A stretch of 64,000 nucleotides of DNA from Cryomorphaceae bacterium BACL7 MAG-120322-bin74 (GTDB lineage Bacteria; Bacteroidota; Bacteroidia; Flavobacteriales; Schleiferiaceae): the NCBI GenBank assembly GCA_001438205.1, contig LICG01000004.1, forward strand, positions 1 to 64,000, given 5' to 3'. The notes beneath the pieces were generated by a model. That model had not been told where the DNA came from. It saw only the letters and a list, made by a program, of their open reading frames with translations, and made no database searches. Below are positions 24,274 to 29,068 of the stretch, piece by piece; the stretch's first letter is position 1; each line of letters opens with the position of its first letter. Position numbers and translations under genes: made by a program.

Positions 24274-24960
24274 TCAAGGCACAAAGACCCGTGCCTGCCA
24301 CCCATGTGCTATAGCCGCCGCTACATTGTCGGCATTGTCGTCCACAAAAAAGACTGTGCTCGGATCCTTAACCCCAAGTTTTTGATCAACAGCCCTATAT
24401 ATGGCGGGATCAGGCTTGCGAAGCCCTAGATCATAGGAATAGAAAACATGTTCAAAACAGCGGGTAAATTCGCCGTACCCACGGGGCCCAAGACGGCGTT
24501 TGACTTCATCCATATGGATGCGGTTGGTATTGCTGAGCACTTGAAGCCGATAATCCTTGGCTAACTGGTGCAGTTGACCTATCAGCCAAGGTTGAAAACC
24601 CAAGAGCAACGCATTCCAGGCATGGTCAAGGCTTCGGTCAGAAGCGGCATGGCGGAGATGCTGTCGGAAAGCATCTCTAAACTCCGAAGAGGAGAGCGCA
24701 CCGGTCTCAACCGCCTGGTAGGCGTTGTGGTTTTGGTAGCCTAGCGCCCCAATGGTAAAGCTGGATTTGGCCCCAAGGGAAATAAAGGCTTCGGCACTGC
24801 GCTGTGGCTCAATGTCGATCAGTACTTTGCCAAAGTCAAAGACAATATGCTCCGCCTTACCCGCCCATTCGGCCATTTCGCTTGCGCGAAATCGTCGAAT
24901 GGGCGGCAGAGGTTCCGGCAATGCCGGATGAAACTTGGTCTGTTTTGGTTGCAGGCTCAT
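24274..24960 (-). CDS. HAD-superfamily hydrolase (class IA)
   Basis: 228 residues from ATG 24960, chosen because it overlaps the upstream stop in ATGA; a start four codons earlier is possible. HAD motifs: FDFGKVLID (motif 1, but the usual second Asp position is Gly, as in YihX-like members), LSNTN (motif 2), the Lys of LRKPDPAIY (motif 3) and FFVDDNADN (motif 4). Likely a small-phosphate phosphatase of the YihX/alpha-glucose-1-phosphatase-like group. Co-directional with the broken BNR protein gene. Confidence 0.85.
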   Translation of the reverse strand: MSLQPKQTKFHPALPEPLPPIRRFRASEMAEWAGKAEHIVFDFGKVLIDIEPQRSAEAFISLGAKSSFTIGALGYQNHNAYQAVETGALSSSEFRDAFRQHLRHAASDRSLDHAWNALLLGFQPWLIGQLHQLAKDYRLQVLSNTNRIHMDEVKRRLGPRGYGEFTRCFEHVFYSYDLGLRKPDPAIYRAVDQKLGVKDPSTVFFVDDNADNVAAAIAHGWQARVFVP

Positions 24961-27900
24961 CAAGGATTCCAACTTGGGAGCAAAGGCAATGCGGTAGAGG
25001 CAATGCGTTCGCTAAACTCACGGTAATCCGTATCCAAAAAGGCGGAAAGCAGGGCCATCTCCTCTTGGGTGCGCTTTTCCCAAGTAGCATGGATGTTCAT
25101 CAAATTGGGACTGGGCTTTCCTCGTAGGCTCCAGAGGTAACCCCCAAACTGTCCGTTCAACGATGCCCACGTTTCGGGTTGCTCGTAATATCCTTTGACG
25201 TCCTCTTTGCCAAACAGGCGCAAACGATGGTCTTCAATGGCCTTCTTGAGGTTTTTAATCTCGTCCAAAAAGGGCTGTACTTGCGCACTGTCCGTGTCTT
25301 TGCGGTCTTTCAAGATGCCCTCCAGTGAGCCTAAGCTTTGATTGGCTTCATAGAGTTTGGAGACCAAGTCAGCCATGTCTTGGTTGATGCCATATAAACT
25401 TCGTTGGAAGGCGATTTGGGCATCCCATTCTGCTGCAGGCATTTGGATGCGGGGATCGTCTACCACCTCTACATGGGCGCTATCAAGGGCACCGTCAAGG
25501 GAAAAGACGGCCAAATATGGTCCTGGCGCCACGGATGCTCCGCGAGGATCCGACTTTTCACGGTCCTCATTGCGCTTGCCCCATCGTGGGCGTTGGCTTC
25601 CTTTTTCGGCCAAATCCCAGGTAAAGCGGTAGAGGCCCACATCTTCTTTGTCCAATTTTCTTTCCATGTGACGAATGAGCCCTCCGTCTGCATCATAGAG
25701 GTCCACTTTGAGTGGAGCCTTGGATGCTTCGTCACGCTGGAGGTAAAGGACAAATCGAGCGCCACCCCCACGGTTTTCGCCTTTAAAATCTGCCCACCCC
25801 TGGAAGCGAATACCATCTGAAACACGGGTTTCGGCGTGAATAGCCAAGGGTGCATCAAAGGCCGTCAAGGTGCGGTTGGCCGCAGCCCCTTTGACCATGG
25901 CGCGCAAGGGGCGCAAATCATCTAGAACCCATGCTGAACGCCCAAAAGTGCCGAGGATAAGGTCTTGTTCGCGTTCCTGAATGGCTAGGTCTTGCACGGG
26001 CATGGTAGGAAGTCCCTTCCAGGCTTGCCATGTCTTACCGTAATCCGTACTGAGTTGCAAGCCTGTTTCGGTTCCTAGATATAAGATGCTGGGCACTTCA
26101 TTGTCTTGGATGACACTCAGGGCGTGGCCTGTGAGATGGGCGTTGGACACCAGATTGGTCCATGTTTTTCCATAGTCTTTGGTGTGAAAGAGGTAGGCGT
26201 TCCAATCGTTTTGACGGTAATTGTTCACCACGACAAATGCTTCTGCTGCACTGTAGGCAGAGGCATGAATGCTGCACTGTAGGCAGAGGCATGAATATGG
26301 GGAACCCATGCGCCTTCAGGCAATCCTTTGATCTTTGGGCTACAATGGGTCCAAGTTGCACCCCCGTCACGGCTTACCTGGATGTTTCCGTCATCTGTTC
26401 CCACCCATAGGGTCGTGGGATCTTTGACCGACGGGGCAATCGTCAGTATGCAGGTATGGTTTTCTGCCCCCGTGACGTCAAAGGTGAGTCCACCGGATTC
26501 GAGGGCTTTTTGTTTGTCTGGGTTGTTGGTGGTGAGGTCTGGAGAGAGGATGTTCCATGTACGACCTTGGTCTGGGCTGTAGTGCACGTATTGAGAACCA
26601 TAGTAGAGTCCATCAGGATTCAGGGGATCCCCTGCAATGGCGGCATTCCAATGCCAGCGCAGCCATTCTCCGTTAGGATGGACAGGTTTGATGGATTCGG
26701 TCATGCCGGTGACCATATCTACCCTTGCTAAAGAGCCCTCTTGTGCCATGGCATAAGAAATGCGGGGGTTGGTTGGATGGGGCAAAACATCAAAGCCATC
26801 TCCAAAGTAGAGTTCTTGCCATTCATTGTTGCCAATGCCAGTGCCAATCCAAGAATAGGCTGGGCCGCGCCATGAGCCATTGTCTTGCATGCCGCCATAG
26901 ACATTGTAAGGAAGCTGATTGTCAACGCGAATGTGGTAAAACTGTGCTACGGGAAGATTCTCAACAAAACGCCAGCTAGCGCCCGCATCCCACGAGATGT
27001 TCAGGCCTCCGTCATTGCCTTCAATGAGATGACCAGGACGTCGTGGGTTGAGCCATATTGCATGGTGGTCAGGGTGAACTTTGGAATAGGGGGTCACCAC
27101 ATCCCAGCTTTTTCCGCCATCCGTACTCTTGGTCACCAAGGTCCAGAGCGAATACAAAGTTTGGTCATTGAAGGGGTCGACAAATAGATCGGAATAGTAG
27201 AAGGGGCGGTTGCCAATATTTTCATCTTCACTGACTTTGAACCACTTAAAGCCACCGTCGTTAGAGGCGTACAGTCCATTTTTGGCTTTGTTTTCAACCA
27301 GTGCATAGACTTTTTTCGGGTTGCTTGGGGCAATCGCAATACCCATACGACCCAAATCTCCTTCGGGGAGGCCGTCTTCAGAGGTGCGCTTGGTCCAGGT
27401 TTCACCCCCATCAAGTGTGACATACATCCCGCTACCTTCTCCGCCACTTTTAAAAACCCAAGGCCAGCGGCGGTACTCCCACATGGCACAAATGAGCTTG
27501 TTGGGGTTAACGGGATCCATCACCAATTCTGCAGCCCCAGTGCGCTCATTGTTGTACAGTATTTTGGCCCATGTCTTGCCTCCGTCGGTAGTCTTGTACA
27601 CCCCGCGGTCAGGCGTGTCACCCCATGCAACCCCAATGGCTGCAACGTATACGGTGTTGGGATGGGTAGGGTCAATCACAATGCGGTGGATATGCTTGGT
27701 TTCTTTCAGTCCAATCAGTTGGAAGGACTTGCCGCCATCTACACTTTTGAATAAGCCCCCCCCACTGGATTGCGAGTTTCTTGGATTGCCTTCGCCGGTG
27801 CCCACCCATAGGACATCGGGGTTGGTTGGGTCAATTTTAACGGCACCAATACCTGCTGTCGGTTGGTCGTCCCAAATGGAGGTCCAGCTTTGGCCCGCAT

Positions 27901-28111
27901 TTTCGCTGACCCAAACGCCACCCGAAGCTGTACCGACAAAAATGTGGTTGTCATTACGGGGATTGACATCAATGGAAGTCACACGTCCGGACATGCCAGC
28001 AGGGCCAATATTTCGGAATTTCATATCCTCCAATACCGAGGATTCGATCGATTGGGCTATGGCCGTGAAGGAGAGGGCCAAGACGCACAATGTGAGGGCA
28101 AATTTCTTCAT
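24960..28111 (-). pseudogene. Large secreted BNR/VPS10-type repeat protein gene split by a 26-bp tandem duplication
   Basis: Two overlapping frames (628 residues from ATG 28111 to 26225; a second from about 26309 to 24960) are halves of one protein. Removing one copy of the exact 26-bp duplication at 26245-26296 restores ...HIHASAYSAAEAFVVVNNYRQ... and gives one 1041-residue protein. It has a signal peptide (MKKFALTLCVLALSFTAIAQ) and many Asp-box/BNR repeats (SxDGGxTW such as STDGGKSW and TLDGGETW), as in sortilin/sialidase-like beta-propellers often annotated glycosyl hydrolase. The C-terminal ~250 residues are helical. As written, the gene makes a truncated propeller. Whether the duplication is real, phase-variable or an assembly error cannot be told here. 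Confidence 0.85.
26245..26296. repeat. Exact 26-bp tandem duplication causing a frameshift
   Basis: 26245-26270 and 26271-26296 are identical and adjacent. Twenty-six is not a multiple of three, so the second copy shifts the frame of the BNR-repeat gene. Confidence 0.95.
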
Positions 28112-28145: not shown

Positions 28146-29036
28146 TTATTCTGCCACCTTGTATTTGCGCGGTGTTGTGCCAAATTTTTTCTTGAAGGCC
28201 GCAATGAAATGACTTGGGTTGGTATAGCCAATATCAAAGGCCACTTCATTCACCGACTTTCCGCCTGCATCGAGCATTCGGCGGGCATGATTGAGGCGGG
28301 TATCCATAACAAAGCCATAGACGGTGTTGCCATAGACTTCTTTAAATCCAACCTTCAGTCGGTAGGCATTGAGTCCGGTGCGTTCAGCGAGCTGTGCAAT
28401 TGTGGGGGGGGATTGCCATTGGCTTAGGATGATGGACTTGGCTTCTCGAATCTTGCGCACCGTTTCTTCATCCTTCAAAAAGGGGCAGGCGACGACGTTG
28501 GGCTCGGAGATGTGGAAATAGAGGCCAAGTAGCTCCAATATTTGTCCCAAATGAGCCACACGTTGGGCATTGACACTGAGGCGATGGAAGAATAGATTCT
28601 CTAGAATGATTTGCATGGCCGAATCCACTTGTCGCTGATCATAGATAGGACGTTGCATATCCTTTTGGTTGAGGAAAGGAAGCTCTTGGGCTTCAAATCC
28701 ATCTTGCATGAAAAGGACATGCATTCTTGAAAAAGCAATGCGAACCCCCACCATGCGATGGCCCTTAGGCAAAGTGGCTTGGGCGCGAAGAATATCCTTC
28801 GGGTTATAAATGAAAAAGCTTTGACTTTGCGGTAAAGGCCGCATGTACATGGGCCCAAATTGAAAAGTTACATCACCTTCCATACTGAAGAAGAGATGAA
28901 TATTTTCAGGAAGTAAGTCTATCCCGATCGGTATACCCTCTCCTTCAGAAATGGCACGCAAAACGCCAATGCCTTCGTAGAGGTCATAAAAGGCGGGGGT
29001 TGATCCATTTCGGGTATTACGAAGATTGGTGGGCAT
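28146..29036 (-). CDS. AraC-family transcriptional regulator
   Basis: 296 residues from ATG 29036. The last ~95 residues are the double helix-turn-helix AraC domain: PTIAQLAERTGLNAYRLKVGFKEVYG and SVNEVAFDIGYTNPSHFIAAFKKKFGTTPRKY. The N-terminal ~190 residues are a cupin-like sensor region without an obvious ligand motif. A TTG at 29063 opens the same frame, but it lies inside a TAATTTTG promoter element and is rejected as start. Targets are unknown; the neighbouring BNR-repeat gene is one candidate. Confidence 0.9.
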   Translation of the reverse strand: MPTNLRNTRNGSTPAFYDLYEGIGVLRAISEGEGIPIGIDLLPENIHLFFSMEGDVTFQFGPMYMRPLPQSQSFFIYNPKDILRAQATLPKGHRMVGVRIAFSRMHVLFMQDGFEAQELPFLNQKDMQRPIYDQRQVDSAMQIILENLFFHRLSVNAQRVAHLGQILELLGLYFHISEPNVVACPFLKDEETVRKIREAKSIILSQWQSPPTIAQLAERTGLNAYRLKVGFKEVYGNTVYGFVMDTRLNHARRMLDAGGKSVNEVAFDIGYTNPSHFIAAFKKKFGTTPRKYKVAE

Positions 29037-29060
29037 GTGGTATTTTGTTTCTAGGTCGTG

Positions 29061-29068
29061 CAAAATTA
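29061..29068 (-). promoter_or_regulatory. -7 element TAATTTTG for the AraC-type gene
   Basis: Exact TAnnTTTG on the minus strand, 24 bases before the ATG at 29036. Confidence 0.55.

Follow-up and report, generated by a model that had tools for sequence, protein, structure and literature searches.

The window, a stretch of 64,000 nucleotides, belongs to a draft genome (77 contigs, 1.74 Mb, 96.8% complete) of an uncultured bacterium whose close relatives are filed under Schleiferiaceae/Cryomorphaceae, Flavobacteriales. It carries a minus-strand gene, running from 28111 to 24960, whose frame is shifted by an exact tandem duplication, so that the gene is read as two open reading frames (ORFs) in different frames. 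The 5' part (26225 to 28111, minus strand) is an ORF of 628 aa with matches to Sortilin-Vps10 and BNR repeats and with a signal peptide, which was assigned by inspection; its last ~12 residues are out of frame. The 3' part (24960 to 26309, minus strand) is an ORF of 449 aa without a signal peptide, and contains the remaining propeller blades, a beta-sandwich and a helical end, preceded by ~13 residues that are out of frame. An AraC-type regulator (28146 to 29063, minus strand) lies upstream and a HAD-like hydrolase (24274 to 24972, minus strand) downstream. The order of the regulator, the hydrolase and one further downstream gene is kept in the congeners, and this conservation on both sides shows that the locus is correctly placed. 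An intact paralogue with 43% identity is present on contig C3 of the same genome, and no second copy of the broken gene was found in that genome.

The duplicated unit of 26 bp is present twice, exact and head to tail, with a maximal extent of 26244 to 26296 (strand not applicable). Tandem Repeats Finder (TRF), direct reading and a repeat search all confirmed the exact duplication that had been reported in the preliminary description. At period 26 there are 27 matching columns, corresponding to two copies and one base; the phase of the duplication is therefore ambiguous by one base, and the microhomology at the breakpoints is one base. It was the only tandem array reported within the window. 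The expectation of such a run by chance in 64 kb is negligible (~1e-11 for period 26, and 6e-8 for periods 20-400). There was no excess of DNA hairpin formation at the duplication site (z -0.54), and both the two-copy and the one-copy junctions were absent from the viral contig collection that was scanned.

Each half of the broken gene was compared on its own with loci of congeners and of a genome collection. The ~40 homologues that were readable across the site, ranging from congeners to other phyla, all showed one continuous frame. None carried the duplication or a repeat tract at the site, and in the alignment their length at the site corresponded to exactly one copy. Frame changes were observed at L007/L033, L014 and L016/L024; these loci contain N runs. 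The gene is thus broken relative to its intact orthologues, as a pseudogene would be, and its frame depends on the copy number, the one-copy relatives being in frame. Earlier reading of the sequence had proposed a split gene with an intact length of ~1041 residues, and had predicted that removal of one copy would restore the frame. Both statements held, as the uninterrupted frame of the relatives lacks precisely 26 nt at the site, and the relatives are of one-copy length and in frame.

The AlphaFold model of an intact homologue (L029; mean pLDDT 83) comprised two propellers, a beta-sandwich and a helical C-terminal region, with the propellers arranged as the tandem double beta-propeller that is characteristic of GH74. 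The nearest solved structures were GH74 xyloglucanases (Foldseek E 3.5e-26, ~17% identity, TM ~0.44 on the query), and sequence searches returned matches to GH74 and to sortilins as well. In the fold of the intact homologue and in its Asp-box repeats, the protein resembles the GH74 xyloglucanases (e.g. 6p2n, 6mgl and 6p2l), which are tandem double propellers, and the Sortilin/Vps10 BNR propellers. However, the protein differs from the GH74 and Sortilin propellers in its additional beta-sandwich and helical C-terminal region, and the identity is only ~17%. A literature search on bacterial Vps10 propellers found nothing. The signal peptide and the GH74-like double propeller agree with the prior description of a secreted propeller protein; its designation as a surface protein was not upheld, as no sorting domain was seen. 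The break is located at about residue 605-616 of 1041. As this position lies inside the second propeller, complete folding of the truncated product would not be expected, judging from the model.

Apart from the duplication, no stop codon or other indel was identified in either half of the gene. The synonymous sites are saturated between the species, which makes dN/dS unusable, and codon positions were therefore compared instead. Of the differences private to the window sequence, third codon positions account for 82% (5' part) and 87% (3' part), and the intact congeners are alike in this respect. Constraint on the gene persisted until very recently, or continues still. Both halves retain the distribution over codon positions that is seen in genes under constraint, so the event is either recent or non-biological. 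This is in keeping with the original proposal of a recent event or an assembly error, given that the duplication is confined to one lineage, the gene is otherwise undamaged, and the divergence in both halves is biased towards the third position.

To place the duplication within its assembly, 1.51 Mb of its own genome (G000; 87%) and 1.08 Mb of a congener (G012) were compared. Of 635 orthologues, the propeller gene, entered as a positive control, alone was truly split, and none of 636 was split in the reverse comparison of G012 against G000; general frame noise in the assembly was rejected on these counts. Apparent splits at L085, L183 and L203 were also rejected, the extra match lying upstream of the true start codon. 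A survey of exact two-copy duplications of at least 20 bp, with a length that is not a multiple of three and a position outside repetitive tracts, identified two in the 1.51 Mb of G000: the 26-bp duplication and an intergenic one. The latter has a unit of 32 bp without an extra matching base, is located at C35:10234-10297 (L210:10234-10297), and adjoins a terminator-like hairpin. The rpsC gene of the same genome (C3:68290-69312; L092:8290-9312) encodes 340 aa, compared to 244-272 in the congeners, where the gene ends normally. In its tail a Gly/Pro-rich repeat is expanded and one base appears to have been lost, so that the customary C-terminus follows directly behind in another frame, which hints at local consensus errors in repeats.

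We consider that there is about an even chance that the locus records one mutational event, a recent 26-bp tandem duplication private to this Schleiferiaceae-type (Flavobacteriales) population, resulting in loss of function and not in a dedicated switch. We infer that the duplication is present in the cells, as opposed to having been made by the assembler, and that the function of the propeller protein is lost. The frameshift would end the protein at ~residue 616. The product would then lack the final blades of the second propeller together with the beta-sandwich and the helical C-terminal region, and the downstream piece would be left without a signal peptide. Such a loss might be tolerated through the paralogue elsewhere in the genome. 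The low frequency of splits across the orthologues is consistent with a real mutation; however, a microhomology of one base suits polymerase slippage poorly, and the same assembly contains unmerged short contig-end overlaps and the suspicious frameshift in the tail of rpsC.

Duplications that arise from untrimmed contig overlaps or from gap closing are known from draft assemblies. An origin of this kind is a serious rival to a real mutation, and we rate it at somewhat below an even chance. Contigs with a 26-bp end overlap would have been joined, or a gap closed, without trimming, and in the cells the unit would be single and the gene intact. Three pairs of the contig ends that were sampled overlap and are unmerged (C11 start/C5 end, 29 bp; C14 start/C3 start, 45 bp; C26 start/C8 end, 16 bp), compared to 0.025 expected by chance from 70 interior pseudo-ends, and in G012 the members of each of the latter two pairs are neighbours. 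A duplication of exactly this type would result if such ends were joined untrimmed. The duplication at the locus resembles such products in being an exact copy, in falling within the size range of the assembly's own unmerged overlaps, and in having almost no microhomology; the 32-bp intergenic duplication and the apparent one-base loss in the essential rpsC are in line with the same origin. On the other hand, the site bears no N runs or other marks of a join, and the absence of N letters throughout the 1.51 Mb of G000 means that there is no direct sign of scaffolding. Furthermore, such duplications number only two in that sequence, similar exact duplications are found in other genomes (26 bp in L045 and 19 bp in L047), and the duplication lies in ordinary coding sequence, unlike most of the observed overlapping contig ends, which extend into AT-rich DNA.

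The preliminary description had also suggested phase variation. In the fullest form of this reading, gain or loss of the second copy would reversibly turn a large exported double-propeller protein off or on in a free-living member of the Bacteroidota. Slippage can remove an exact tandem copy and so restore the frame, and there is a precedent in the pneumococcal capsule genes, where tandem duplications that arise spontaneously act as a switch (Waite 2001 and 2003, cited in PMC4243769 and PMC4022640). The present case resembles cap3A, cap8E and tts in that a short, exact tandem duplication within an ORF disrupts the frame and could later be removed; for the pneumococcal duplications, however, reversibility and control of expression were reported, whereas the duplication described here is known from one sequence. 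Against a switch, there are two copies only and no tract, the relatives have neither a repeat nor a two-copy allele at the site, and no homologue was caught broken beyond those explained by N runs. The microhomology is minimal, the site has no unusual structure, and the expected reversion frequency of a 9-bp duplication, as given in PMC4022640, is ~1e-5 at most. Switching is possible only generically, as for every two-copy tandem duplication; since low-frequency reversion is open to any such repeat, the capacity to revert does not by itself speak for a switch. With no sign of selection for switching, we regard phase variation as improbable. If it were true, the few loci known to vary via non-tract tandem duplications would be joined by one for an exported double propeller from an environmental bacterium. 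It is more improbable still that both pieces are produced and function independently as proteins: the 3' ORF does have its own ATG, but the break inside the second propeller, the missing signal peptide of the 3' piece and the absence of a split in any relative all argue against it. In general, when a short exact duplication disrupts a reading frame in a single draft genome and every relative is intact, it should be treated as a random mutation or an assembly error unless mixed alleles are seen in the reads.

Further exact repeats were identified in the course of the comparison. A Chitinophagales metagenome-assembled genome (MAG) carries, upstream of a proline-dehydrogenase-like gene, an exact 26-bp tandem duplication with 27 matching columns (L045:996-1048). 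It raised the question of whether period 26 reflects a fixed k-mer size; this was unsupported, as the other duplication in G000 is of 32 bp and the contig-end overlaps vary. The 19-bp exact duplication at L047 belongs to another genome. Contig C22 of G000 (L081:8139-8239) contains almost four exact copies of a 27-bp unit, a length that is a multiple of three, and this looks like an in-frame protein repeat.
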